This document shows positions 15,267 to 32,002 of a stretch of DNA of 33,490 nucleotides, one piece after another (within the stretch, counting starts at the first letter, position 1; each line of letters begins with the position of its first letter). A model generated the notes under the pieces. It was not told the origin of the DNA. It made no database searches and saw only the letters and a list, made by a program, of their open reading frames with translations. Both the position numbers and the translations under genes were made by a program. The stretch lies in the NCBI GenBank assembly GCA_947487355.1, contig CANKXC010000004.1, positions 1 through 33,490 of the forward strand. The letters are read 5' to 3'. The DNA is from Comamonadaceae bacterium. GTDB taxonomy: Bacteria; Pseudomonadota; Gammaproteobacteria; Burkholderiales; Burkholderiaceae_C.

Positions 15267-16283
15267 TTAGGCGGTGGGGTCGGCAAGTACTTCCGAAAGC
15301 TGAACGCGGCGACCTTCTCTGGCAGAAATAATGCCAGCGCGAATAACACCCAATGAACGGGTTGCATAATCACCGCCTGTTTCTGGCGTGCCGTGACCAC
15401 GCACGGCCATCGCAAACTCATCAAGTTCGTCAACAAAGGTATCGTTTTTGTCGAATGGGATTTGTTCTACCGTTTCAGTGCCACGCTTAATGAAACGAAG
15501 TCCTCCCCGCAGGTCGAAATAAGCACTCGCTTCTTTGCCATAAATGTTCATGACATAGTTTTCGGTTGCCGACGCATAGCTTGCATTGACGGTTGACAGT
15601 GCGCCGTTCTCGTGCTGCAACAAAAGAGAAGCCACATCAGGGTTGTCGCCTGGCAGAACCAGTTGTGCGGCTTGTCCACTCACCGCAGTGATTGGGCCCA
15701 TCAAATATTCCAGTACGTCGACATAATGCACACCAATTTGCAACATCACACCGCCTGGCATACCCTCTGCCTGGTAGCGCCATGAGGACAAGTCAATCTT
15801 GCCCAGGCGATCACGGCTGATGTTGGCTTCTGCATTGACCAATTTGCCAAAAATGCCGGCGTCGATTTGCTTTTTGATCCAGCGGAATTGACTCTCACGA
15901 CGGCGCTGATAGCCCAGTGCCAAGACAACGCCAGCTTTTTGACAAGCTTCAGTGATGGCCCGTCCTTCTGCCAATGTATTGGCAATTGGCTTATCAAGAA
16001 AGACATGTTTGCCAGCCTCAGCAGCTTGCTTTGTAGTTTCAAGGTGAACATTGTTGGGCGTGGTATTGATGATGGCATCAATAGAGTCATCGGCCAATAT
16101 CTCTTCGTAACTTTTGGCTTCGGCGCATCCGTACTTCGCAGCAAAAGCCGCACGTTTGTCTGCCGAACGCGTATAACAACTGCGAATGACAAATTTGTCT
16201 GAGCGCTGCATGGCGTCTGCCAAAACGTCAGACCACCAGCCCATGCCTAAGCAAGCCACGTTGATAGGTTTAATTGACATCAT
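15267..16283 (-). CDS. Gfo/Idh/MocA-family NAD(P)-dependent oxidoreductase
   Basis: INVACLGMGWWSDVLADAMQRSDKFVIRSCYTRSADKRAAFAAKYG, NTTPNNVHLETTKQAAEAGKHVFLDKPIANTLAEG (EKP-like loop), IGVHYVDVLEYLMG. Confidence 0.88.
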   Translation of the reverse strand: MMSIKPINVACLGMGWWSDVLADAMQRSDKFVIRSCYTRSADKRAAFAAKYGCAEAKSYEEILADDSIDAIINTTPNNVHLETTKQAAEAGKHVFLDKPIANTLAEGRAITEACQKAGVVLALGYQRRRESQFRWIKKQIDAGIFGKLVNAEANISRDRLGKIDLSSWRYQAEGMPGGVMLQIGVHYVDVLEYLMGPITAVSGQAAQLVLPGDNPDVASLLLQHENGALSTVNASYASATENYVMNIYGKEASAYFDLRGGLRFIKRGTETVEQIPFDKNDTFVDELDEFAMAVRGHGTPETGGDYATRSLGVIRAGIISAREGRRVQLSEVLADPTA

Positions 16284-16300
16284 TTTTCCCTGTTGAGTAT

Positions 16301-17722
16301 TTAAGATTTGAGGACAACAAGAACTTCATCCAGCATTTTCTTGGCATCGCCAAACAACATGCGGTTGTTGTCTTTGTAAAAGAGTGGGTTGTCAACTCCT
16401 GCGTAGCCGCTGGCCATGGAGCGCTTCATGACAATGCTGGTGCGGGCTTTCCACACTTCAAGCACAGGCATACCTGCAATGGGACTTGTCGGGTCGTCTT
16501 GCGCAGCAGGATTCACAATGTCGTTGGCACCAATCACGATGGCCACATCGGTGTCCGGGAAGTCGTCGTTCAACTCATCCATTTCCATCACGATGTCATA
16601 AGGCACTTTGGCCTCAGCCAACAACACGTTCATGTGGCCTGGCATACGGCCCGCAACAGGGTGAATACCAAAGCGGACGTTGACACCTTTGTCGCGCAAG
16701 GTGCGGGTAATTTCAAAGACGGTGTGCTGAGCTTGTGCAACGGCCATGCCATAGCCCGGCACGATGATGACGTTTTTGGCATCGCGCAGCAATTCTGCAG
16801 TCTCTGCAGCCAAGATGGGGCTGACTTCACCAACCGGCTCGGCATTGGCATCGCCAGGGGCCTTGGGTGCGGCAGCGGTTGTGCCAAAACCGCCAGCGAT
16901 CACACTGATGAAACTGCGATTCATGGCATTGCACATGATGTACGACAGAATGGCGCCGCTAGATCCGACCAGTGCACCCACCACGATTAGCAAGTCGTTG
17001 CTCAACATAAATCCGGTGGCAGCCGCTGCCCAACCCGAATAACTGTTGAGCATGGACACCACCACGGGCATGTCGGCACCGCCAATGGCCATGACCATGT
17101 GAATGCCAAACAAAAGCGCAATGGCGCTCATGACAAACAAGGGGAACATGCCTTCTTCGATGGTCTCGGCTTGTAAGAACATGCGGCCAAAGTAAACGAC
17201 CGCCAGCAAACCAGCCAAATTAATCCAGTGGCGCGCAGGGAGGAGCAAAGGACTGCCGCCGATACGGCCCGACAACTTTCCAAATGCTGCCACTGAGCCA
17301 GAGAAAGTGACTGCACCGATGAAGATGCCGATGTAGATTTCCATCGCGTGGATGGCGTGGGCGGCACCCTCAAAGCCTTTTGTTGCTTCTGGGTCAACGT
17401 ATGTGGCGTATCCGACCAGCACAGCGGCCATGCCGACCATGCTGTGCATCAAGGCGACCAATTCAGGCATTTGGGTCATCTGAACGGAGCGTGCTGCATA
17501 CAAACCAATGGCACCGCCGACCACCAAACTGCCGACGATCCAAGGCGTGCCTGCCGCTGTGACTTGTGGGCCAAGCACGGTGGCCAAAATAGCCAAAGTC
17601 ATGCCGATCATGCCAAAGAGGTTGCCTCGGCGTGCGGTTTCCTGGTTGGACAAACCGCCAAGGCTGAGAATGAAGAGAATGGTTGCACCAATGTAAGCAA
17701 CCGTGGACAAGTTAGAGCTCAT
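16301..17722 (-). CDS. pntB: NAD(P)(+) transhydrogenase subunit beta
   Basis: Multi-spanning N-terminus plus [59 protein letters not shown] domain III. Confidence 0.96.
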
Positions 17723-17739
17723 GAATTGTGTCTTCCAAT

Positions 17740-19371
17740 TTATTTTCTGAACATCGCCAGCATGCGCTGAGTGACCGCAAAGCCACCAAACATATTGATG
17801 GCAGTGAGCACCAAGGCGAGCGAGGCCAATACGATGATGAGCGTGTTGGGGCGCGCAGCAGCATTGGCCATGGGCGAGATCTGCACCAGCGCGCCAATGG
17901 CAATGATGGAGCTGATGGCGTTGGTCACGCTCATAAGCGGCGTGTGCAGGGCCGGTTTAACGTTCCAAACCACCATGTAACCGACAAAGCAAGCCAGCAC
18001 AAAAACAGTGAAGTGTGAAAGAAACGCTGCCGGTGCATAAGAGCCCACCAAGAAAAACAAAACAGCGGTGATACCAGCAACCATTGCCAACTTACCTGCT
18101 GGCATGGGACCAGAGGGTTCACCATGGCCATGGCCTTTTTTGGCAACTGGCGCAGTAGCAGCTTTGGGCGCAGGTTTGGCCGCAACAACCAATGGTGGCG
18201 CAGGCCATGTGACAGCCCCGTCTTTGATGACAGTCAGCCCGCGAATAGCATCGTCTTCCATGTTGACGTTGATCACGCCATCTTTGGTTTTGCAAAGCTC
18301 TTCCGTCAACCGGAACAAGTTGGTGCCGTAGAGGGTTGACGACTGGCGTGCCATGCGCGAAGCCAAGTCGGTATAACCCACAATGGTAACGCCGTGCTTA
18401 ACCACCGCCTTGCCTGGCTCGGTCAATTCGCAATTGCCACCTTGCTCGGCAGCCATGTCAACAATGACGCTGCCGGGCTTCATATTTTTCACCATTTCAG
18501 CGGTGATCAGCTTAGGGGCTGGTTTGCCAGGAATGAGCGCAGTGGTAATGATGATGTCGCACTCTTTGGCTTGCTGCGCATACATCTCGCGTTGCGCAGC
18601 CTGAAAGCCTTCGCTCATGACTTTGGCATAACCGCCACCGCCCGAACCTTCTTCCTCATAGTTCACCTTGACGAACTCGCCACCCAGTGACACCACTTGG
18701 TCGGCAACTTCAGCGCGTGTGTCGTTGGCACGAACGATGGCGCCCAAACTGGCAGCCGCACCAATGGCAGCCAAGCCAGCCACACCCGCACCGGCAATAA
18801 AAACCTTGGCAGGCGGTACTTTGCCTGCTGCCGTAATTTGACCATTGAAGAAACGACCAAAGGCACCTGCCGCTTCAATGACGGCGCGGTAACCACTGAC
18901 ACCCGCCATGGACGTTAGTGCATCCATTTTTTGCGCACGGCTTAGGGTGCGTGGCAAGGCGTCAATTGACAGTGCGGTGACTTTTTTGGCCGCCAGTTGC
19001 TGCATCAAATCGGGATTTTGAGCGGGCCACAAGAAGCCAATTAGCGTCTGGCCTTCGTGCATGAGGGTGACTTCTTCTGCCGTAGGGGCACGAACCTTGA
19101 AGACGATGTCAGTGCCACTCCAAAGTGCTGCAGCATTTGGGGCGATGCTTGCACCGGCTTGTTCAAAGGCTTGATCAGACAGATCTGCCAGCTCTCCCGC
19201 ACCTTGCTCGACCACCACCTCAAAGCCAAGTTTAGTCAGCTTGGTGACCACATCGGGTACGGTGGCAATACGCTTTTCACCAGGGAAAATCTCTTTGGGA
19301 ACACCTATGCGTTGCGGTTTGCGTAAAGCATTGCTTTCTTGGGCGGTGTCACTTGGATGGACAGTGGTCAT
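17740..19371 (-). CDS. pntA: NAD(P)(+) transhydrogenase subunit alpha (fused alpha1-alpha2)
   Basis: [41 protein letters not shown]-terminus plus C-terminal transmembrane helices in one 543-aa ORF. Confidence 0.95.
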
Positions 19372-19418
19372 AAAAATCTCAATTAAAGTGTGAAATGATG
19401 ATTTACGGATGTGTGTCT

Positions 19419-19448
19419 AAAAGCGGCCATTCGATGGTGTCGCTTTTT
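19419..19448 (-). terminator. likely terminator of the catabolic operon (after the dehydratase gene)
   Basis: AAAAGCG-G-CCAT-TCG-ATGG-TGT-CGCTTTTT two-part stem with A/T flanks; located between the dehydratase stop and pntA start. Confidence 0.55.
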
Positions 19449-19490
19449 AACACTCAATTATCTTGATTTCGCTCTGAATATCGCTGGCTT

Positions 19491-21209
19491 TCATTTCGTG
19501 TCCATTTCAGTGGAACGAAGAAAATCAAAATCACAGCCAGCATCGGCTTGCATCACGTGGTCTTGGTAAAGTTTGGCGTAACCTCGGTCAGGTGTCGCAC
19601 CACGCGCTGGCAATTCTGCGCGTCGACGTGCCAATTCGGCTTCATCAACGAGCAGGTCAACTCGGCGCTCTTTCACAGACAAGCGAATTCGATCGCCATT
19701 GCGGACAAGCGCCAATGGACCGCCTGCCGCAGCCTCAGGCGTGACGTGCAAGACGATGGTGCCAAATGCAGTACCACTCATGCGCGCGTCAGAAATACGA
19801 ACCATGTCTTTGACACCCGCCATTGCCAGCTTCTTCGGAATTGGAAGATAGCCGGCTTCGGGCATGCCGCTGCCGCTGGTTGGGCCCGCATTTTGCAAAA
19901 CCATGATGTCGTCTGCTTGAATATCAAGATTTGGATCGTCAACACGCTCAGACAGGTCTTGCAAAGAAGTAAAGACAACTGCGCGCGCTTCTTTCTCGAA
20001 CAGTGTTTTGTCAGCTGCAGATCTTTTCAGGATGGCACCACCTGGGGCCAGCGAACCAAAAAGCGCCACCAAACCGCCCACGGGTTCAATGGGCTCAGAA
20101 GCTTTACGAACGACGCGATGATCTGCCCAAGCGCCTTCCTCAGCAGCAAGCCGTTCTCCCAATGTTTCACCAGTCACAGAAATAGTGTCTAGATGCAGTA
20201 GTGGCTTCAGTTCTCGAAGCAAAGCGCTCATGCCACCTGCGGCATAGAAGTCTTCCATGTAATTGTCGCCTGTTGGCTTCAGGTCTACGAGTACAGGGGT
20301 TGTATCGCTTAGTTCATTGAGATCGTGCAAAGAAATCGGAATTCCCCTGCGCCCAGCGATGGCCGTCAAATGAATGATCGCGTTGGTACTTCCGCCCAAA
20401 GCAAGCAGAACACGTAGCGCGTTGTGCACAGACTTTGTCGTGATGACCTGGCTGGGTCGAATAGGGTTTTGAATCAAGCGAACTGCATGGGCACCACTGG
20501 CCTCAGCAGCACGCAGGCGATCGGCATGAACAGCCGGTATGGCTGCTGTGCCAGGCAAGGACATGCCAAGCGTTTCGGCAATACAAGCCATGGTGCTGGC
20601 AGTACCCATCACAGCACAGGTACCTGCTGTGGTTGCCAATCGGCCTTCGACGAGGTCAATGGTTTTGCGTTCGATTTTGCCAGCGCGGTAGCTGCCCCAA
20701 AATCTGCGGCAGTCTGTGCAAGCTCCCAAGCGTTCGCCTTCGTGACGACCGGTCATCATGGGCCCAGTAACAAGCTGAATAGCAGGAACATCTGCCGCCG
20801 CCGCGCCCATTAGTTGAGCTGGTACTGTTTTGTCGCAACCCCCGATAAGGACAACCGAATCCATCGGTTGTGCACGGACCATTTCCTCAACATCCATGCT
20901 CATCAGGTTGCGGAACATCAAACTGGTAGGATTTAGAAAAACTTCTCCAAGCGAAATGGTGGGGAACTCAATTGGTAATCCACCAGCAGCCAACACGCCG
21001 CGTTTGACGGCTTCAACCAACTCGGGCATGGCGCGATGGCAATTGTTAAAACCAGATCCACTGGAGGCAATGCCGACAACTGGGCGCTCAAGCAATTCAG
21101 TGGAATAGCCCATTGACTTGATGAAGCTTCGCCGCAGGTAGAGCGCAAAAGCACGGTCACCATAATTTGTCAGCCCGCGCGCAATGCCATGATCGGGAAT
21201 ATCTGCCAT
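19491..21209 (-). CDS. IlvD/Edd-family dehydratase (sugar-acid/dihydroxy-acid dehydratase)
   Basis: GGCDKTVPAQLMGAAAADVPAIQLVTGPM, GACTDCRRFWGSYRAG, GTCAVMGTASTMACIAETLGMSLPG, ALGGSTNAIIHLTAIAGRRGI. Confidence 0.92.
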   Translation of the reverse strand: MADIPDHGIARGLTNYGDRAFALYLRRSFIKSMGYSTELLERPVVGIASSGSGFNNCHRAMPELVEAVKRGVLAAGGLPIEFPTISLGEVFLNPTSLMFRNLMSMDVEEMVRAQPMDSVVLIGGCDKTVPAQLMGAAAADVPAIQLVTGPMMTGRHEGERLGACTDCRRFWGSYRAGKIERKTIDLVEGRLATTAGTCAVMGTASTMACIAETLGMSLPGTAAIPAVHADRLRAAEASGAHAVRLIQNPIRPSQVITTKSVHNALRVLLALGGSTNAIIHLTAIAGRRGIPISLHDLNELSDTTPVLVDLKPTGDNYMEDFYAAGGMSALLRELKPLLHLDTISVTGETLGERLAAEEGAWADHRVVRKASEPIEPVGGLVALFGSLAPGGAILKRSAADKTLFEKEARAVVFTSLQDLSERVDDPNLDIQADDIMVLQNAGPTSGSGMPEAGYLPIPKKLAMAGVKDMVRISDARMSGTAFGTIVLHVTPEAAAGGPLALVRNGDRIRLSVKERRVDLLVDEAELARRRAELPARGATPDRGYAKLYQDHVMQADAGCDFDFLRSTEMDTK

Positions 21210-21293
21210 GAAGAGTCCTAATTGAAACTGATAGTCACCGAATTTTGGATGGCTTCGAGTGACTTAATTGAAATGAACGAAGATTCTAAGCAT

Positions 21294-22760
21294 CTATAGG
21301 CGAGTCTTGATATATTTTGCTTCTAAATAGTCGCGCAGGCCCAGTGAGCCCCCTTCACGTCCCATTCCGCTGTCCTTCACGCCTCCAAACGGCATCTCAG
21401 CACTGGCAATAGCGAGCTCATTGATACCGACCATGCCGGCCTCGATGGCTTCGCTGGCCATGGTGGCGGTTTTAAGCGAACGCGTGAACAAGTAAGACGC
21501 AAGGCCATAGGGCGTGGCGTTGGCAAGTGAAATGGCCTCGTCAAAGTTGCTAAAAGGCGCAATCGGCGCGACTGGCGCAAAGGGCTCGTCGTGCATGATT
21601 CGCGCAGACTGTGGCACATCGGCCAGCGCAGTGGGCGATAAGTAGTAACCCTTGGTTCCAAGGCCTTCTGGACGGGCTCCGCCAGCAATCAAGCGAGCAC
21701 CATGATCGAGGGCATCGGCAATCAAGGACTGTGCGTGCAACAAACCACGGCGATTGGCCATGGGCCCGACGTCTGTATCCGCGGCCAAACCCGGTCCGAC
21801 TTTTAGAGAGCGAGCGATCTCACCAAATTTATCGACAAAGCGTGCATACACACTTTCATGGACAAAAAAGCGCGATGGCGATGCACACACTTGACCGCAA
21901 TTGCGGTACTTGAAGCGCGCACATTGCTCAGCAGCAGCCTCGACATCTGCATCTTCAAAAATCAAAACAGGCGCGTGACCGCCCAGTTCCATTGAGACTC
22001 GCTTGATGCCTTCGGCTGCCAAGTGAAGCATCTTGCGCCCCACTGAGGTAGATCCAGTCAATGTGATTTTTGAAATCTTTGGAGAACCAACCAAAACTTC
22101 AGAAATAAATCCGGAATCGCCAGTGACAAGATTGACAGTTCCAGCGGGCATGCCGGCATCGTGCAAAGCTTGAATGACTGCCATGCAACTTCCCGCGGCT
22201 TCGCTGGCTGGTTTGACCACCACACAACAGCCAGCACCCAAAGCTGCCGCAATTTTGCGAGAAGGCAACAAAGCTGGAAAGTTCCAAGCAGAAAAAGCCG
22301 CCACCACACCAACAGGCTCATACCGAACTTGCATGCGCACCTCAGGCACTCTCGCTTGAAAGGTGTGGCCGTAAATACGCTGTGTTTCGCCTGCATACCA
22401 ATCAAATTGGTCGGCTGCGTCATTGAGTTCACCTCGAGACTGCGCAAGTGGCTTGCCTGTCTCAGATGACATTAAGCGCGCATTTTCTTCGATGCGCTCA
22501 CGCATGATTGAAGCCGTGCGATGCAAAAGCACCGACCTCTCCCATGGGGATGTATGACGCCATGTTCGAAAAGCAGCATCGGCGGCGTTAACCGCCTCTT
22601 CGATGTCAAGACGAGTGGCCACTGGAATGTGGCCAATCACTTCTTCGTTGGTTGGGTCAATGACCTCTCGCGTTTCGCCACCGGTGGCCGCGCGCCAATG
22701 ACCATTGATGAAAAGGCCGTAGCCACTGTATAAACCTAGATCGTCGCGATTCATAGTCAT
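21294..22760 (-). CDS. NAD(P)-dependent aldehyde dehydrogenase (succinate-semialdehyde / alpha-ketoglutarate-semialdehyde dehydrogenase-like)
   Basis: FSAWNFPALLPSRKIAAALGAGCCVVVKPASE, ELGGHAPVLIFEDAD, NCGQVCASPSRFFVHE, FGGVKDSGMGREGG. Confidence 0.92.
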   Translation of the reverse strand: MTMNRDDLGLYSGYGLFINGHWRAATGGETREVIDPTNEEVIGHIPVATRLDIEEAVNAADAAFRTWRHTSPWERSVLLHRTASIMRERIEENARLMSSETGKPLAQSRGELNDAADQFDWYAGETQRIYGHTFQARVPEVRMQVRYEPVGVVAAFSAWNFPALLPSRKIAAALGAGCCVVVKPASEAAGSCMAVIQALHDAGMPAGTVNLVTGDSGFISEVLVGSPKISKITLTGSTSVGRKMLHLAAEGIKRVSMELGGHAPVLIFEDADVEAAAEQCARFKYRNCGQVCASPSRFFVHESVYARFVDKFGEIARSLKVGPGLAADTDVGPMANRRGLLHAQSLIADALDHGARLIAGGARPEGLGTKGYYLSPTALADVPQSARIMHDEPFAPVAPIAPFSNFDEAISLANATPYGLASYLFTRSLKTATMASEAIEAGMVGINELAIASAEMPFGGVKDSGMGREGGSLGLRDYLEAKYIKTRL

Positions 22761-22778
22761 TGAATTTGAAATAATTTG

Positions 22779-24692
22779 TTAAACAAGGCTAGACAGGTAA
22801 CGTTGTTGGACGTCATCGCACCAGTTACCAACGTTCCAAGAACCGTAAGCACCTAAGCCGCCCTCAGGGCGCTCGCCTGCATACACAGGCACATGAACCA
22901 CTGACAACCCAGAATGTGAATGCGCACGCTTTAGGGCATCGCGCAGAGAAGCTGTATCTTCACCACCCCAAAGAGCTTGAACGCCTTTCACACTGCCTGC
23001 CAATTGAACATAATCGACGGCAACTGCATCGTTGGTCCGGAAGTCTCGTCCGTACTGTGCATGCTGAAGGCTAGATATAGCAGCCATACGTCGATTGTCA
23101 AAAATAACGATGGTGCCACGCGCTTGATGTTCTATGGCACTGATGAGTGCCTGTGGGTTCATCATGAATGAACCGTCACCCGTGAATGCAATGGGGTATT
23201 GCTGCGTACTTGCCATGCCGGCAGCAGTGACTGCACAGGTGGCAAAACCCATGTACGAGGCGCCTGATTCTGTGTAAGTCTGTCCAGTTGAATCATCCTC
23301 GACCGTTTGGAAGCCATTGGCCTGCACATCGCCTGCATCAAAGAATTTGATAGCGTGGACTTCATTTGCAAAATCGCAAACGACTTTAATGGCGGCGGGC
23401 TGTGTCAAAACATTCCGTTGCCAGACCTCATCAAAAAGCGGCGGCGTGGACTGTCGCTGATGTAAAAAACTTTTCCAAGCAGCCTTGCTTGCGGCACATG
23501 AATCCAACCAAACAGAACGTTGCTGTGCCTGTTCATCGGGCATCGCTTGGAGCACAGACAATAGTTGTTCAACAACGGCACCGATATCCCCTTGCAAAGG
23601 GATGGTCCGGTTGTAATGCGTCAAGTCGGACAAGTCGGCGTTGATGTTAATTACCTGTTCGACCAAAGGATAGCCGACACCCGAGCAGTCACTTTGACAG
23701 ACAGCACGCGTACCAATAGCCACAAGCAATGTTGCATTGGTCATGGCGTGATTGCCACTGATGGAGCCCTTGCTGCCGCCAACATGCATGTATTGAGGGT
23801 GCGCATCGGGCAAGACCCCCGTGGAGCCTGGCGACGCCACAACTGCAGCGCCGCATCGCTCTGCTAATTCACGCAAAGGACCTGCAAAGGGCCTACCGCC
23901 TCCGCCAACCTTGAAGACAATGCGCGAGTGACCTCGCAAAGCTTCTGCCGCCTTTTTGAGAACCGCCATGTCAGCAACTGCTGTTGGTGTGTTTTGCAGC
24001 GCTTCTGGTAGGGCTTCCAAATTCAGCCCATCGATCACTTGAGGCTGGGTGTTGATTGGCAACATCAAATAAAAAGGACCCGGCTTCACTGGGTGGTTAA
24101 CGCATTGCGTGCCTCGACGCAGTGCATCTCGAAGTGCCTCTGGTGTGTGCAACACATAAGATTGCCCCATCAGAGCAGTCATTTGACCGTACAACTGCTG
24201 CTGCTGCTTGGGAATCTGCTGCATGTTATAGCCTTCACCCCAGGTGGTTTCATCGCCATAAATATGATACAGACCAACACCATTGCAAGCTGCCGCCAAG
24301 GATCCAGCCATGGCCTGAAGCGCACCCGGACCAATAGAGGTTACGACTGCGCAAGGCTCCTTCCATGCCCAGGCCAGAGCCGTTCCGGCATGGGCCATTT
24401 CAACTTCGTTGCGAAAGTTAAAAACCTTCGTCACGCCAGCCTCTGTGTAAACGCGAAGTACCTCGCCAAGATCGGTTGAGCCGTGCCCGAAAATAGCCAA
24501 GTATTTGCTGACACCTTGCTTGAGCAGACCCAACACCAATGCTTCAGAAAGTGTGATGTTGAGCTGCTTGGGCAATGCGCCTGAAGCTAAAGCCTGATTC
24601 AGACCACCACTGCTTGCGATAACTTTTGCCCTAGCTTCTAAGCCCTGAGTTCCTAACAGCATGACGGAAGGTATTTCAACTTGTTTGTTCAT
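22779..24692 (-). CDS. thiamine-diphosphate-dependent enzyme, IolD / acetolactate synthase-like
   Basis: FGHGSTDLGEVLR, NFRNEVEMAHAGTALAWA (catalytic Glu region), GDGSFMMNPQALISAIEHQARGTIVIFDN (ThDP motif). 637 aa, long for acetolactate synthase but similar to IolD. Confidence 0.85.
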   Translation of the reverse strand: MNKQVEIPSVMLLGTQGLEARAKVIASSGGLNQALASGALPKQLNITLSEALVLGLLKQGVSKYLAIFGHGSTDLGEVLRVYTEAGVTKVFNFRNEVEMAHAGTALAWAWKEPCAVVTSIGPGALQAMAGSLAAACNGVGLYHIYGDETTWGEGYNMQQIPKQQQQLYGQMTALMGQSYVLHTPEALRDALRRGTQCVNHPVKPGPFYLMLPINTQPQVIDGLNLEALPEALQNTPTAVADMAVLKKAAEALRGHSRIVFKVGGGGRPFAGPLRELAERCGAAVVASPGSTGVLPDAHPQYMHVGGSKGSISGNHAMTNATLLVAIGTRAVCQSDCSGVGYPLVEQVININADLSDLTHYNRTIPLQGDIGAVVEQLLSVLQAMPDEQAQQRSVWLDSCAASKAAWKSFLHQRQSTPPLFDEVWQRNVLTQPAAIKVVCDFANEVHAIKFFDAGDVQANGFQTVEDDSTGQTYTESGASYMGFATCAVTAAGMASTQQYPIAFTGDGSFMMNPQALISAIEHQARGTIVIFDNRRMAAISSLQHAQYGRDFRTNDAVAVDYVQLAGSVKGVQALWGGEDTASLRDALKRAHSHSGLSVVHVPVYAGERPEGGLGAYGSWNVGNWCDDVQQRYLSSLV

Positions 24693-24705
24693 TGACTTGA
24701 ATTGA

Positions 24706-25686
24706 TTATTTGATATTCAGACCGGCTCGCTCAATCAGTCTGCCCAACATGACGTCGTCCTTGGCAATCAGTGGGCCGAATTCATTGGCGGGCATGAATG
24801 CTGGGACAAAGCCCATCTTGACGCCCTGCGCCTTGAATTCCGGACTTGTCACAGCCTCCTGTAAAGCCTTCTCGAGTCGAGAAACGATGGCTGGCGGCGT
24901 TCCCTTGGGTGACGCAATACCACGCCACATTTCGCCGTTGTAAGCCATGCCTGCCTCTGCCGTGGTAGGTACCGATGGGAATGCTGGTTCGCGTGACGAA
25001 GCCAATACACCCACAATGCGCAATGTGCCTGCACTGACATGCGATGTCAGCGCAGATGGCACCGACACAACAGCATCAATTTGGCCGCCAAGCAAGCTTG
25101 TGACGACTTGCGATGCACCAAAAGGTACATGCATGACATCGGCATTAATTTCTTTAAAAAATGCCACAGATGAGATGTGTGTATGACTACCAATACCAGA
25201 ATTGCCAATAGAAACTACGCCTGGACGCTTTTTGACATCATCCACCATGGCCTTCAGATCTTTCCAAGGCGCATTGGCCCTGACAGCAATGACTGGGTTT
25301 TCAACCGTCACTCGGGCAATAGGATCAAACGCGCGGTAGTCAAAGGGAATCAAGCCAGAGTAGAAAACAGTGCTGATCGATGTTGAATTAAATACCAAGG
25401 TATAGCCGTCAGCTGGCTTCTGTTGTGCGTACTTATAACCAATGGAGCCACCACCACCTGGCTTGTTAACGACCACAATCTGCTGGCCAAGTTTTTTAGT
25501 CATTTGTTCTGCCAACACACGCGCCGTAACATCAGCTGCTGAGCCCGCTGGAAATAGGACAACTAACTCAACAGGCTTTGCTGGAAAGTTTTGCGCAAAG
25601 GCCGCACCCGTTGCGAAGGCGCTGACTGTTGCAAGCATTCCTACCAGGATAGAGCGGCGTAAATTGGTTTGATTTTGATTCGTCAT
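24706..25686 (-). CDS. tripartite tricarboxylate transporter substrate-binding protein (Bug/TctC family)
   Basis: Signal peptide; NFPAKPVELVVLFPAGSAADVTARVLAEQMTKKLGQQIVVVNKPGGGGSIGYKYAQQKPADGYTL is diagnostic. Confidence 0.95.
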   Translation of the reverse strand: MTNQNQTNLRRSILVGMLATVSAFATGAAFAQNFPAKPVELVVLFPAGSAADVTARVLAEQMTKKLGQQIVVVNKPGGGGSIGYKYAQQKPADGYTLVFNSTSISTVFYSGLIPFDYRAFDPIARVTVENPVIAVRANAPWKDLKAMVDDVKKRPGVVSIGNSGIGSHTHISSVAFFKEINADVMHVPFGASQVVTSLLGGQIDAVVSVPSALTSHVSAGTLRIVGVLASSREPAFPSVPTTAEAGMAYNGEMWRGIASPKGTPPAIVSRLEKALQEAVTSPEFKAQGVKMGFVPAFMPANEFGPLIAKDDVMLGRLIERAGLNIK

Positions 25687-25763
25687 TTTTGTCTCCGTTA
25701 TTAAAAAGGTTTGGTGTATTCATCTTTGAAATAAAGACACCGCATAAAAACTGACTGATTTTT

Positions 25764-26795
25764 TTAGTTGATGGTCTCTTCAATTGGCGTTGTGACAGCC
25801 TTTGCAACTGAGCGCTTGGCAATCAATGCCTCCATCACGCGCTCAGGTGTTGCGGGGAGCCGAGTCATGCGAACGCCAACAGCGTCGTAGATGGCATTGA
25901 TAATTGCAGCCGCTGTGGGCGTGATGGCTGGCTCCCCAATTCCTTTCACACCAAGTGGTGTCTTTGGATCTGGTTCGGTCAGCAATACTGATGTGACATG
26001 TGGAATGTCCAAAGCGGTAGGCAATATGTATTTGGCAAAGCCAGGGGTGGTTGTTTCGCCATTGACCTGAACATACTCTTCCATCAGTGCATGTCCCAAT
26101 CCCATAATGACTGAGCCTTCAATTTGGCCTTCGACTTGCTGTGGATTGATGACTCGACCCACATCATGCGCTGCCCAAACACCCAAGACTTGCACTTCAC
26201 CCGTGTCGTCATCCACTTCAACCTCTGCCACCTGTGCGCCAAAAACATAGCTCTGCCATGGTGTTGCTTCGCCAGTTTCCGGATGAAGCGAGGTATGCGC
26301 TGAGGTAAAGAGTCCGCTACCGACGATCACAATGCCACGCTCTTTTTTCAAAACGTGAACAGCATGTTCCATGCTCATGCGTTTACTGGCTGAACCCTCA
26401 ACCCAGACTTGACCTGAAAATGCTTTCACGCTTTCGGGGCTGACACCCCAGTAAGCGCCCATCGCAACACGAAAGCGTCCAAAGGCTTCACGGCAACCTA
26501 CAGCAACTGCATTGCCAATCATGTAGGTCATGCGTGTTGCACCTGCGTGCGCTGCTTCTGGTACACGCGCAGTGTCGTTGTCGCCCAAGACGATGTCTTC
26601 AGGTCGAACACCCATTTCCTGTGCTGCAATCTGGCAGAGACCCGTCAATACACCTTCACCGATCTCAGTGACGCCAGTGGCAATTTTGACAGTGCCACCA
26701 TCGTCGAGCTCAACCCAAACAGCAGCTCGGTCCATCGCTGCTGTACGGGCGATACCGTACCAACCACAGGCTACACCTCTTCCTCTGTTTTTCAT
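25764..26795 (-). CDS. molybdenum hydroxylase, C-terminal Moco-binding half (MoCoBD_2-like) as a separate polypeptide
   Basis: MKNRGRGVACGWYGIARTA, GVTEIGEGVLTGLCQIAAQEMGV, VNPQQVEGQIEGSVIMGLGHALMEEY-like block, GVKGIGEPAITPTAAAIINAIYDAVG (catalytic Glu region). ATGA overlap with upstream ORF; AAGGAG at 26803-26808. Confidence 0.9.
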   Translation of the reverse strand: MKNRGRGVACGWYGIARTAAMDRAAVWVELDDGGTVKIATGVTEIGEGVLTGLCQIAAQEMGVRPEDIVLGDNDTARVPEAAHAGATRMTYMIGNAVAVGCREAFGRFRVAMGAYWGVSPESVKAFSGQVWVEGSASKRMSMEHAVHVLKKERGIVIVGSGLFTSAHTSLHPETGEATPWQSYVFGAQVAEVEVDDDTGEVQVLGVWAAHDVGRVINPQQVEGQIEGSVIMGLGHALMEEYVQVNGETTTPGFAKYILPTALDIPHVTSVLLTEPDPKTPLGVKGIGEPAITPTAAAIINAIYDAVGVRMTRLPATPERVMEALIAKRSVAKAVTTPIEETIN

Positions 26796-28744
26796 GCCAT
26801 GTCTCCTTGATTGTGATGAGCCTCTGAGGTCAGCGGAACACTGGGTTTGGTTTTGCCACCAATTAAATAGAACTCACGCGAACCTTCATAATTGAAATCG
26901 CTTCGCATGGGCTGACCCTGTCCTTGACGGTAAGGCACGCCGGGTTCCCAGCCGGCAGCTTTGATGGCTGCTTCTAGACATTCGACAGCCAGTACGCGAT
27001 CGAGTTGTTGCCGAGTGTGCGTCGTTGCACCGTCGCGCATCAAATTGATACGGCGCAAGGCAACGGGATCCATGCCGAGTTTTTGCGCGCAAAGGTCCAA
27101 GTGACATTCGGTGGCAAACTCAGATTGAAAAGCACCAAAAGCACGGAAGGCACCGCTAGGCGTGTTGTTGGTGTAGACACCAATGGAGTCGACCCACACA
27201 TTGGGTACTGCGTAGGGCCCAGGACCCAATATGGCCGACTTGTTCATCACGCCAGGCGTAGACAATGCGTAGGCACCACCATCGCTGACCATGACCATCT
27301 TTGTGGCAACAATGCGTCCATCGCGCTGAAGGCCCATCGTGTAACGGATGTTGAAGGGGTGCCTCTTAGCGCTGACCTTGATACTTTCTTCGCGCGTAAA
27401 GACATAACGAACTGGACGACGAGTTTTAATAGCCGCCAGCGCCAAAATGCCTTGATAAATCATGTCTTCTTTACCGCCGAAGCCACCTCCCACGGTACTC
27501 ATGATCATGCGTACTTTGTTGATGGGACGCCCCAAAATGCGAGCCAACATGTGCCTGTGGTGGGTAATGTTTTGGCTAGGCGACTGTACCGTCACACAAC
27601 CATCAGCTTCTAAGTAAGCCAAGCCAGCTTCAGGTTCAAGGTAAGCATGCTCGATGGATTGGGTGTTGTAGGTTTGCTCAACAATGATGTCCGCTTGTGC
27701 CAACGCAGCATCGACGTCTCCCTTACGGATACGCGTGTGCTTGCAAATATTATTTTGCGCAAAAGAATGCAGTTGAACAGCACCATCTTTCATGGCTTCG
27801 TGAGGGTCAAATAAGCTGGGAAGTTCTTCGTACTCAACGTGAATCAAAGCCAAAGCAGCGCGGGCAATGTCCAAAGTTTCAGCCGCTACGGCTACGACAG
27901 CCTCGCCTACATATCTGACGACATCTCGGGCCAATGTTGGTTGGTCTTCGATAAAGACTCCGAAGTTGTCAACCCCTGGCACATCATCACAAGTTAGTAC
28001 ACATTCAACACCTGGCAGCGAACGTGCCAAGTCTGTATCAATGCGGACAATGCGTGCATGCGGATGAGGGCTGCGAAGCACCTGCATGTGCAGCATATTG
28101 GGCATGAACATATCTGCCGCATATTTGATTGCGCCAGTGACTTTCGCGGGAGAGTCCAAGCGACGCGTACGCTGACCAATAAAACTGTCAGTCGCTAGAT
28201 CTTCATCAAGTGCACTGTGAGGTTTTGTGCCATTTTGGACATCACGCGCCAGTTCTACTGCATCAATAATTTTTTGATAACCCGTACATCTGCAGATGTT
28301 CCCGCCCAAGCCTTCTTTGATATCGTCTCGGCTGGCGTCTGGGTTTCTTCGCAAGGTGGAAGTGGCAGCCATCACCATGCCTGGAATGCAATAGCCGCAT
28401 TGACTTGCACCGCATTTATTGAATGCTTGTTGCAACAGCGACATGCCTGAATCACGGTCCAAATCGTCAATGGTCTCAACCGAGCAACCATTGATTTTCT
28501 GAACGGGTGAAAGGCAGCTCTTGATTAATTTACCATCCACAAACATGGAACAAGTGCCACACTCACCAGCACCGCAACCCTCTTTGTTTCCCGTCAACTT
28601 GAGCTCTTCACGTACAAAGTCAATCACACGGTAATGATTGGGTACAGTGCGCTTAACTTTTCGGCCGTTGACCGTTGCGCTAATTTCTGTCGTGGGATGG
28701 CAGCCTTGCGCCAAAGATCCATCTGATAAAAGCGTATCAGACAT
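26792..28744 (-). CDS. molybdenum hydroxylase, [2Fe-2S] subunit fused to the N-terminal Moco-binding half
   Basis: ORF 26792..28792; likely start 28744 (MSDTLLSDG...). N-terminus GCGAGECGTCSMFVDG, CGASQCGYCIPGMVM, GNICRCTGY; then SFIGQRTRRLDSPAKVTGAIKYAAD, GGGFGGKEDMIYQGILALAA, GAFRAFGAFQSEFA. Confidence 0.92.
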   Translation of the reverse strand: MSDTLLSDGSLAQGCHPTTEISATVNGRKVKRTVPNHYRVIDFVREELKLTGNKEGCGAGECGTCSMFVDGKLIKSCLSPVQKINGCSVETIDDLDRDSGMSLLQQAFNKCGASQCGYCIPGMVMAATSTLRRNPDASRDDIKEGLGGNICRCTGYQKIIDAVELARDVQNGTKPHSALDEDLATDSFIGQRTRRLDSPAKVTGAIKYAADMFMPNMLHMQVLRSPHPHARIVRIDTDLARSLPGVECVLTCDDVPGVDNFGVFIEDQPTLARDVVRYVGEAVVAVAAETLDIARAALALIHVEYEELPSLFDPHEAMKDGAVQLHSFAQNNICKHTRIRKGDVDAALAQADIIVEQTYNTQSIEHAYLEPEAGLAYLEADGCVTVQSPSQNITHHRHMLARILGRPINKVRMIMSTVGGGFGGKEDMIYQGILALAAIKTRRPVRYVFTREESIKVSAKRHPFNIRYTMGLQRDGRIVATKMVMVSDGGAYALSTPGVMNKSAILGPGPYAVPNVWVDSIGVYTNNTPSGAFRAFGAFQSEFATECHLDLCAQKLGMDPVALRRINLMRDGATTHTRQQLDRVLAVECLEAAIKAAGWEPGVPYRQGQGQPMRSDFNYEGSREFYLIGGKTKPSVPLTSEAHHNQGDMA

Positions 28745-29645
28745 AGTGTGACTCCTTTGGTAAACGAGGCAATTCGAGCCCAGCGTGCGCAATGGCAGTC
28801 ACCAGCGATCGCTCAACGAAATTACTCAAAACTTCTCTCCTGTAACTTTGTCGGCTGCGAGAGCGAACACGATCAGCAACTCGAATCGATGCATCACGCA
28901 GGGCTAACGGCGTCGGTTTGATACCTGTCAGCAGGTCTTCAATGTCAGAGAGGCGTTCAGGTACTGGGCCAACAGCACCAATGGCAATGCGCAAATCCTC
29001 AATCCGCTTGTCCGCATCAAGGCGAACTAGCGTTGCCAGGCAAACTGTGGATATTGCAAGCGAGCGACGATGGCCTACCTTCTCGAAAGAAACGCCATGT
29101 TGGGGTAAAGCATCAAACTCTAGCCGCACCAGAATTTCTTCTGGCTGCAGCAGAGTTTTACTTGGCCCAAGAATGAACTCGGAAAGCGGTACTGAGCGCT
29201 CAAGAATACGACCTGATTCGCGACGTGCGATCGTGACGTGTGTATTGAGCGCCAGCAAGGCCGGTTGAGTATCGCCAGCCGGCGAAGCATTGACCAAATT
29301 ACCGCCAACTGTGGCTTGCTCACGAATTTGATCGTCCGCAAACCAAAGTGCGCAGGAGCCCAACACCGGTGCTTGCTGCTGCAAAAGCGGATGCAACTGC
29401 AACGCAGAGATGGGCGTCGTTGCCCCAAGGCGAATTCGTGCGCCTTGTTGGGATATTCCGCTCAAATCAGCTATCCGGCTGATGTCAATCACAGCTGGCA
29501 GGTGAACATCGCCAGCCCGGCCCTCTCGGGCCCAGGGCAATAGGTCTGTGGCACCAGCCAACAAGCGAGCAGCCGGTATTCGATGCAACATGTCAAATGC
29601 ATCATCGAGCGACTCTGGCGTTAAGTATTGGTCAAATGTAAGCAC
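28737..29645 (-). CDS. molybdenum hydroxylase FAD-binding subunit (CoxM/XdhB type)
   Basis: ARLLAGATDLLPWAREG, IRLGATTPISALQLHPLLQQQ, REQATVGGNLVNASPAGDTQPALLAL. Stop overlaps next start by 8 nt. Confidence 0.94.
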   Translation of the reverse strand: MLTFDQYLTPESLDDAFDMLHRIPAARLLAGATDLLPWAREGRAGDVHLPAVIDISRIADLSGISQQGARIRLGATTPISALQLHPLLQQQAPVLGSCALWFADDQIREQATVGGNLVNASPAGDTQPALLALNTHVTIARRESGRILERSVPLSEFILGPSKTLLQPEEILVRLEFDALPQHGVSFEKVGHRRSLAISTVCLATLVRLDADKRIEDLRIAIGAVGPVPERLSDIEDLLTGIKPTPLALRDASIRVADRVRSRSRQSYRREVLSNFVERSLVTAIAHAGLELPRLPKESHYV

Positions 29646-29658
29646 GGTTAACCTTGAT

Positions 29659-30810
29659 TTAGCAACCTTCGGGGTGGCCGATTTTCACGACGACCTTGAT
29701 GGCATCGTCAATGCGCTCGCGGGCATGACGCAAGGCTTCAGGCAACTCTTCCAGAGGGAAAGTGTGCGTGTGAATAAGCTTGGCATTGAATCGTTTTTGC
29801 GCCATCAAAGCAGCTGCGCGGTGCGTTGCACTCTTGCCTTCACCACGGATACCAAACATATAGATATTGTTGCGAACCAAAGCTGCAACATCGATAGGTA
29901 CTGGAGAGCCAGGGAATGCAGCCAAACAGATGCGACCGCCACGGCGAAGCATGGATGATGCGTCGTTAACAGCGTTGGGTGCGCCAGAGCATTCCAACAC
30001 GTAATGCGCACCGCCATTGGTGTACTCGCGAACCTTGGCAACGGCATCTTCTTTGGTCACGTTGATGGTGTAGTCAGCACCGAGCTTGCGTCCCATTTCA
30101 AGACGGTTGTCGCGCGTTCCAGTCAGAATGACCTCGCTTGCACCCAAAGCCTTGGCAACGCCAACGCCCATCAAACCGATAGGGCCGGGTCCCATAATGA
30201 CAACGGATTGACCAGCGATCAAACCACCAATGACATCCAATCCATACATGGCAGTGCCCGCAGTAACGATCAATGTCGCTTCTTCATCGCTCATGTCTTC
30301 TGGAACATGCGCCAACGTGTTGATGTTGTTGACCGCATATTGTGTAAATCCACCATCGGTTGTAAAGCCGTTGGCACGGTGACCTTTGTTAACTTCGCCA
30401 TAGTTTTTACCGTAGTTGAGGCAAGAGGTGTACATACCTTCTCTGCAGCGCTCGCAACGACCACATCCAGCGTGCACTTCGACTGTGACGCGATCGCCAA
30501 CCTTGTACTCATCAACACCTTGACCAAGCTTGACAACAGTGCCCATGTATTCGTGGCCAGGCGTGAAGTTCTTGTTAAATGGGAGGCCACCATTGATTAA
30601 AGCGGGAGGTCCTTTGTGGATGATTTCTAAGTCAGTTGCGCAAACAGCAATGGCGTCAATGCGCACAAGCACCTCAGCAGCACCAGGTTGCGGTACAGGT
30701 TTGTCTACAAAAGTCAGCTGTTCGGGATCGCCAAGCACCCAAGCTTTCATGGTTTCTGGAATTTTGTAGCTACGCTGGCCCAAGAAGGCGGCATCTGTGT
30801 TGGTGTTCAT
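29659..30810 (-). CDS. zinc-dependent medium-chain alcohol/polyol dehydrogenase
   Basis: ORF 29659..30894; likely start 30810 (MNTNTDAAFLGQ..., GGAGAAAAG upstream). GHEYMGTVVKLGQGVDEYKVGDRVTVEVHAGCGRCERCREGMYTSC structural zinc loop, VIMGPGPIGLMGVGVAKALGA. Confidence 0.93.
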   Translation of the reverse strand: MNTNTDAAFLGQRSYKIPETMKAWVLGDPEQLTFVDKPVPQPGAAEVLVRIDAIAVCATDLEIIHKGPPALINGGLPFNKNFTPGHEYMGTVVKLGQGVDEYKVGDRVTVEVHAGCGRCERCREGMYTSCLNYGKNYGEVNKGHRANGFTTDGGFTQYAVNNINTLAHVPEDMSDEEATLIVTAGTAMYGLDVIGGLIAGQSVVIMGPGPIGLMGVGVAKALGASEVILTGTRDNRLEMGRKLGADYTINVTKEDAVAKVREYTNGGAHYVLECSGAPNAVNDASSMLRRGGRICLAAFPGSPVPIDVAALVRNNIYMFGIRGEGKSATHRAAALMAQKRFNAKLIHTHTFPLEELPEALRHARERIDDAIKVVVKIGHPEGC

Positions 30811-30938
30811 CTTTTCTCCAAAGGTTAGTGAGTGGAAATTGATCGAGAACTTCGACGCGTTTTCAGTACGCATTTGATTTTTCGATGGATCCATTGAACG
30901 CTATGATTTTGGTGTTCACAAGAGGGAAAACGAATATT

Positions 30939-30975
30939 CTTGGACAAATACAAGTTATTCCTTGATTTGTCCAAG
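30939..30975. promoter_or_regulatory. inverted repeat CTTGGACAAAT-N15-ATTTGTCCAAG in the adh/araC divergent region
   Basis: 11-bp perfect arms; inner CAAG/CTTG arms (30951-30954/30961-30964) extend it; additional GTCCAA copies at 30975-30980 and 31026-31031. Confidence 0.65.
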
Positions 30976-31084
30976 TCCAATTTTTATGGACGCAGCACGG
31001 ACGTTTTGTGAAACGCATAATGGGGGTCCAAATATCAGGGAAATCCCTGTCTTTCAACGACCTGCTAATCCACGAAATGCGCCC

Positions 31085-32002
31085 ATGAAAGTTGAAACGC
31101 CACCTTCGGTCGACATCCACACTTACTCCATGGTCGAGCGGTCGGAGCGTTTCGACTTTGAAATTCGTGACCAGTCAACGCGGGTGCCCATCGCCAAACC
31201 ACATCGGCATGAGCATTTTCAAATCATTGCAAACCAAGCAGGTAATGCACCGCACTTGCTTGGTGGGCGCCGAATAGAGTCTGTTCAAGGCTCGATCGTT
31301 TTCGTATTACCTTACCGAGTCCACCTTGCCATGGTGGAGCCAGGCACTCGCTATCAGTTGATCAATTTTTCAAGTAAATTTCTCCGACCGGATTTTGAGT
31401 TATCGCCGCTTGAAATGGAGGAAGCTTCGATCGTCAAGTACCCAGAACTCACGCCCTTCATTTACCAAGGCTGGTTTGACTTTGTCTTTGATGAAAAAGA
31501 GTTTGCATACATTGAAACCTTGCTCGAAAGACTTCATGATGCTCACAACAACAGGCGGTTGGGCTCACTCGATCGAGCAAGGGGCGCTCTTTTTGAAATC
31601 ATCGGGATGACCACCGAAAAATTCGCGCCACAACTTCAGGTGTTGGCAGATAAGCGTGTCTACATTCAAGATCACACCGATGCGCTGCGTCGCGTCTTAA
31701 AATTTATCGATGAAAACTTGCACCGCGAGATCGGTTTGAATGTGGTTGCAGAAGCCGCTTACCTTTCACCAAACTATCTGTCACAGTTGCTCAAAAAACA
31801 GACAGGTTTGGCTTTTGTCGATTGGTTAACTGGACGCCGCATGGAACGCGCTCAACACATGTTAACGCACACAACAGATCGTGTCAGCGCCATTGCAAAC
31901 AAAGTTGGCTTCACTGACGAGGCTTATTTCACACGGCGCTTCACTAAACGCTTTGGTGTTTCACCATCAGCTTACCGGCGCTCTTTACGCGACATAGGCT
32001 GA
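31085..32002 (+). CDS. AraC-family transcriptional regulator
   Basis: ORF 30962..32002 (TTG start); ATG 31085 preferred because upstream starts would overlap or abut the inverted repeat. C-terminal HTH: EIGLNVVAEAAYLSPNYLSQLLKKQTGLAFVDWLTGRRMERAQHMLTHTTDRVSAIANKVGFTDEAYFTRRFTKRFGVSPSAYRR. Confidence 0.93.
   Translation: MKVETPPSVDIHTYSMVERSERFDFEIRDQSTRVPIAKPHRHEHFQIIANQAGNAPHLLGGRRIESVQGSIVFVLPYRVHLAMVEPGTRYQLINFSSKFLRPDFELSPLEMEEASIVKYPELTPFIYQGWFDFVFDEKEFAYIETLLERLHDAHNNRRLGSLDRARGALFEIIGMTTEKFAPQLQVLADKRVYIQDHTDALRRVLKFIDENLHREIGLNVVAEAAYLSPNYLSQLLKKQTGLAFVDWLTGRRMERAQHMLTHTTDRVSAIANKVGFTDEAYFTRRFTKRFGVSPSAYRRSLRDIG

Follow-up and report, generated by a model that had tools for sequence, protein, structure and literature searches.

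In the nicotinate dehydrogenase of Eubacterium barkeri (NdhFSLM, PDB 3hrd), the subunit that holds the molybdenum cofactor (Moco) is made of two chains, NdhL and NdhM, and a FAD subunit is also present. NdhF, NdhS, NdhL, and NdhM have been described as four subunits (PMC10331938). The aldehyde oxidoreductases of Desulfovibrio (MOP; 1sij and 1dgj) carry two FeS domains followed by the first and second Moco-binding regions (Mo1 and Mo2) in one chain. MOP is not known to have a FAD subunit. The selenium-dependent xanthine dehydrogenase or XdhD type (TIGR03311) is likewise a single chain, with FeS fused to the Moco part. The 4-hydroxybenzoyl-CoA reductase has a separate FeS subunit and a single Moco chain.

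Domain content and position of the cut

The window is the whole 33,490-nucleotide stretch of DNA that was analysed, from a Comamonadaceae metagenome-assembled genome (MAG). Two neighbouring genes on its reverse strand encode the enzyme. The N-half gene (26792..28744, 650 aa) contains Fer2 (residues 24-75), Fer2_2 (91-164), the hammerhead domain Ald_Xan_dh_C (203-309), and MoCoBD_1 (326-568), followed by an 80-residue tail; these assignments come from Pfam and from PDB 3hrd_A and 1sij. The C-half gene (25764..26795, 343 aa) contains MoCoBD_2 only, with residues 2-265 covering profile positions 23-283, and the catalytic-Glu motif GIGEP, as identified by Pfam and by alignment with NdhM. A sequence-only reading of this DNA had described two open reading frames with both [2Fe-2S] Cys sets, GGGFGGKE, and GIGEP; its coordinates, domains, and motifs were confirmed by Pfam, which placed FeS and MoCoBD_1 on one frame and MoCoBD_2 on the other. 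Its placement of the split at the MoCoBD_1/MoCoBD_2 boundary needs a small correction: the cut lies some 22 positions into the MoCoBD_2 profile of Pfam and so not exactly at that boundary.

At the junction (26792..26807, reverse strand), the stop of the N-half and the start of the C-half share 4 nt (ATGA), and the two genes lie in different frames. The stretch CAAGGAGAC, shortly 5' of the C-half ATG, contains the ribosome-binding site AAGGAG. The gene of the FAD subunit (28737..29645, reverse strand; FAD_binding_5 and CO_deh_flav_C by Pfam) also overlaps the start of the N-half. The domain set of the xanthine oxidase family (Fer2, Fer2_2, hammerhead, MoCoBD_1, MoCoBD_2, and FAD_binding_5 in the FAD subunit) was found by Pfam, and its catalytic-Glu and Gly-rich Moco-binding motifs were found in the motif counts described below. 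These sequence features place the enzyme in the xanthine oxidase family (molybdenum hydroxylases), and hydroxylase activity is predicted.

The best PDB match of the Moco part of the N-half was NdhL (3hrd_A, 333 bits), and that of the C-half was NdhM (3hrd_B, 219 bits). Residues 1-326 of the C-half align with residues 1-327 of NdhM, start to start; the Moco subunit is thus divided into two chains at the NdhL/NdhM site. The E. barkeri enzyme had been cited as a resemblance; as the best PDB match of both halves, it is a closer relative than that. An AlphaFold model was calculated for a natural single-chain relative, L015 (997 aa, 98 sequences, mean pLDDT 80.4, pTM 0.80). The longest low-confidence stretch in this model is 607-639, right before the first strand of the C-half. 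Foldseek matched the model best to 1sij and 1dgj, both single-chain aldehyde oxidoreductases, along almost its entire length. Taken with the 3hrd matches, the modelled linker and the 1sij/1dgj matches indicate that two-chain and one-chain members share a single fold and that the split lies in a flexible linker. The cut site itself is already known, since NdhL/NdhM are the best solved relatives and the C-half aligns start to start; the fusion of the [2Fe-2S] domains to the first half is new.

Judging by the assembly of 3hrd and MOP, the locus very probably encodes an FAD / FeS-Mo1 / Mo2 hydroxylase, with its large chain made as two proteins, within a catabolic operon. The first protein would contain the two [2Fe-2S] clusters along with the hammerhead and Mo1; the other would supply Mo2 and the catalytic glutamate. 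Translation of the C-half would start in the stop region of the N-half (ATGA), which should hold the two products in step. The halves would fold together around one molybdenum cofactor and form, with the FAD subunit, an FAD / FeS-Mo1 / Mo2 heterotrimer, probably as a dimer of these. Electrons would pass from the substrate to Mo, then through the two [2Fe-2S] clusters to FAD. The known active site of such enzymes draws residues from both halves, from which it follows that neither half should be active alone.

Conservation of the split and its junction

Related loci were found by N-half peptide patterns, with one genome per species, and the best 80 loci were used. Both halves were visible in 78 of these; 74 share the split and its position, and four are single-frame (L015, L043, L044, and L053), a ratio that is no census, since distant fused relatives are under-sampled by the N-half peptide-pattern search. 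The sequence-only reading would have given way if all close homologues were continuous, or if a single-base error separated the frames. Instead, most of the close homologues are divided alike, with the same junction in close relatives and the split in isolates.

Breakage of one continuous gene by a sequencing or assembly error has a negligible probability. The genome is a MAG of 190 contigs, 58% complete, and the 85% identical relative L015 is one chain, which would agree with such an error. However, many independent projects contributed split loci, some of them from isolates (Rhodopseudomonas, Afipia, Ramlibacter, Rhodovulum, and HIMB114); on the finished Phaeobacter piscinae plasmid, each half is annotated as a CDS of its own. 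The same ATGA junction occurs in the assemblies of close relatives (L013, 95% identical; L056, 99%; L014, 90%). The junction has a ribosome-binding site and a start codon, whereas L015 has GTC at the position of the C-half ATG of its split cousins and lacks AAGGAG. An assembly error was rejected, as independent isolate genomes carry the same split. The L056 contig is binned as a planctomycete (record: Singulisphaera sp. GP187 MAG), and its operon has 96-100% protein identity to the window; the planctomycete assignment is probably a binning error.

A recent gene breakage with decaying halves, which the existence of fused FeS-Mo1-Mo2 relatives (group B, L002, and L132-L134) might suggest, is just as improbable. 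Both [2Fe-2S] Cys sets and GGGFGGKE are kept in 79/79 family members, and GIGEP in 75/76, with GVGEP in the remaining one. Both halves are under strong purifying selection, since comparison with L013 gives dN/dS values of 0.031 (N-half) and 0.023 (C-half). The split is also conserved between alpha- and beta-proteobacteria. These selection and conservation results led to the rejection of a pseudogene or decay.

The 74 split loci show 4-nt and 11-nt overlaps, 1-nt overlaps (TGATG or TAATG), and spacers of 1-19 nt; the widest junction is a 209-nt spacer with a dyad repeat in L067. This repeat element is GC-rich (CCCTCTCCCCGC...GCGGGGAGAGGG) and lies at L067:9866-10072, between the two half-genes. 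Each C-half has its own start codon, in most cases accompanied by a Shine-Dalgarno-like stretch. Programmed frameshifting or stop read-through could join the frames into a single chain, a form that is evidently tolerated in the natural fusions; nevertheless, the varied junctions, the separate C-half starts, and the lack of a common slippery site across the junctions make this explanation very improbable. A shared programmed frameshift was rejected as very unlikely because the junctions differ too much between members.

Thus a base error is ruled out and a shared frameshift is very unlikely, since the split occurs in independent loci and its junctions vary. The two-gene form is heritable and conserved in a distinct enzyme family across alpha- and beta-proteobacteria. 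The homologues and the 3hrd matches support the proposal of a real fusion-plus-split architecture, akin to but distinct from NdhL/NdhM. The existence of four natural single-chain members suggests that function does not depend on the split.

Phylogeny and origin of the split

A phylogenetic tree was built on the joined Mo1 and Mo2 regions, and alternative topologies were compared by AU tests. The family forms one clade (support 100/100), separate from group B (single-chain FeS-Mo1-Mo2), group C (L124-L131, four-gene operons with FAD, FeS, Mo1, and Mo2 from other proteobacteria), and NdhLM. Two main branches were found inside the family, with bootstrap support of 93-94. The fused members are nested inside the family at three places, which requires three changes by parsimony. 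This nesting suggests that they re-fused from a split ancestor. The family is most simply read as one lineage that was ancestrally split, with the genes re-joined later in about three lineages; the direction of change is taken from parsimony on the sequence tree.

The deeper origin of the split might be explained in two ways. The AU tests allowed one clade of all split lineages (p-AU 0.111), the family with group B (0.103), and the family with NdhLM (0.168); the FeS-domain tree does not resolve the deeper order. A fission of a single-chain FeS-Mo1-Mo2 enzyme, MOP or group B-like, with the same linker cut as in NdhL/NdhM by convergence, stands at about even probability. The FeS-Mo1 fusion is common to the family and group B, and the linker has low confidence in the L015 model, hence an easy cut there. 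However, a clade of the family and group B is allowed but not favoured by the tree, and the FeS-domain tree leaves this origin undecided. Somewhat less probable, though still a serious candidate, is that the split was inherited from the same event as NdhL/NdhM, the new step being that a separate FeS subunit became joined to the NdhL-like half. Such inheritance is consistent with the cut position shared with NdhM, with the presence of NdhFSLM-type four-gene operons in proteobacteria as well, and with the allowed single clade of all split lineages. On the other hand, the split must have arisen more than once on the best tree, where NdhLM joins the single-chain FeS-Mo1-Mo2 group with 95/86 support, on long branches.

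The loci L124-L131 (G094, G369, G181, G385, G427, G228, G329, and G114) have separate Mo1, Mo2, and FeS genes, and most of them also have a FAD gene. As these NdhFSLM-like operons are proteobacterial, the NdhL/NdhM-type split reaches beyond the clostridial example; the cut is no clostridial oddity. In L135:7503-10727 (the same gene as L111), Mo1, Mo2, and a FAD domain lie in one 1075-aa open frame, and the FeS gene is separate.

Operon, distribution and relation to known enzymes

The operon genes, all on the reverse strand in the window, were counted among the best 80 loci, using only loci with sufficient flanking sequence. They run from the dehydrogenase through the FAD subunit, the N-half and then the C-half, TctC(BA), the ThDP enzyme, the aldehyde dehydrogenase, and the IlvD-type dehydratase to PntAB. 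The first gene encodes a Zn-dependent MDR dehydrogenase (Tdh / IolM-like; 29659..30894), found in 71/71 loci with room; the FAD subunit was found in 78/78. Downstream of the C-half lies a TctC-type substrate-binding protein of a tripartite tricarboxylate transporter (24706..25686; Pfam). In other loci TctB and TctA come after TctC; in the window they are absent between TctC and the ThDP gene. A sodium:dicarboxylate symporter replaces the tripartite transporter in L034, and L077 and L025 also lack TctC. The ThDP-dependent enzyme (22779..24692), a distant relative of IolD and acetolactate synthase, is present in 59/59 loci with room. The aldehyde dehydrogenase (succinate-semialdehyde dehydrogenase-like; 21294..22760) is present in 41/59 and missing from the Xanthobacteraceae/Pseudolabrys-like set; in L075, the locus examined from this set, Gfo/Idh/MocA oxidoreductases and an alpha/beta hydrolase are encoded. 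An IlvD/Edd-type hydroxy-acid dehydratase (19491..21209) was assigned by NF004784, above its cut-off, and by its closest solved relatives. The transhydrogenase subunits PntA (17740..19371) and PntB (16301..17722) follow, as they do after IlvD, in the same order, on the Phaeobacter plasmid. A Gfo/Idh/MocA oxidoreductase (15267..16283), of a kind also found in Pseudolabrys-type loci, is possibly the last operon gene. A divergent AraC-type regulator (Pfam) lies at 30962..32002 on the forward strand; in other loci an IclR-type regulator is found upstream of the operon.

We infer from these conserved genes, including the transporter, that an imported organic acid is oxidised and is cleaved by the ThDP enzyme, and that the aldehyde dehydrogenase and the dehydratase complete its breakdown. 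The molybdenum enzyme would perform one oxidation step in this catabolism, beside the Zn-dehydrogenase. The ThDP enzyme probably breaks a carbon-carbon bond adjoining a carbonyl, and most members would add the aldehyde dehydrogenase and the IlvD-type dehydratase to the pathway. Cyclitols, cyclic diketones, and N-heterocyclic acids were considered as substrate types, based on the ThDP enzyme, the dehydratase, and the transporter. No nicotinate genes were recognisable in the operon by Pfam or NCBIfam. A search of the 58%-complete MAG gave no XdhC-type chaperone above the cut-off, only a sub-threshold match.

The family was present in 1/401 genomes of the window's own taxonomic family and in 2/399 genomes of its phylum (two matches, at least 63% identity), and one operon copy is on a plasmid (Phaeobacter). 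This rare and patchy occurrence, with one copy on a plasmid, suggests horizontal spread of the operon. In the same-genus genomes searched, no close N-half copy was found, the best matches having about 40% identity or less; the window's operon (15267-30894) was therefore probably acquired horizontally.

In the open-access literature, no description was found of FeS-Mo1 with a separate Mo2, of a MoCoBD fission, or of the operon, nor of the conservation and repeated re-fusion of this fused-and-split plan. XDH and AOX1 are treated in general terms as having split homologues in gut microbes in the accessible part of PMC12547972, where the FeS-Mo1/Mo2 arrangement was not found. An archaeal fusion/fission paper, as far as its available text goes, concerns Moco biosynthesis and not molybdenum hydroxylases (PMC11237513). 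On balance, the evidence leans slightly towards an undescribed clade with its own FeS-Mo1/Mo2/FAD plan, split ancestrally and re-fused repeatedly, which performs a key oxidation in an undescribed organic-acid catabolism of alpha- and beta-proteobacteria, including SAR11 relatives.

The fused-and-split enzyme brings a further conserved subunit plan to an enzyme superfamily that is already well studied, and its operon, likewise conserved, suggests an as yet unassigned organic-acid pathway in freshwater and marine bacteria. At about 85% identity, a natural single-chain member and its split counterparts offer close relatives for testing how a divided, buried metal active site is assembled and receives its cofactor.

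Among the described systems, the alpha subunit of 4-hydroxybenzoyl-CoA reductase is the best NCBIfam match of the C-half and a high Foldseek match of the L015 model; however, the C-half scores far under the cut-off. The best NCBIfam match of the N-half is TIGR03311, but at 516.8 bits against a cut-off of 830.45, and the enzyme is not a single chain. The domain order is that of MOP, whereas the enzyme has two chains and a FAD gene. With NdhFSLM it shares the two-chain Moco subunit, the cut position, and the FAD subunit. It differs from NdhFSLM in its gene neighbourhood, in the residue after GGGFGGK (Leu in NdhL, Glu here), and in its FeS domains, which form the separate subunit NdhS there and are fused to the NdhL-like half here.
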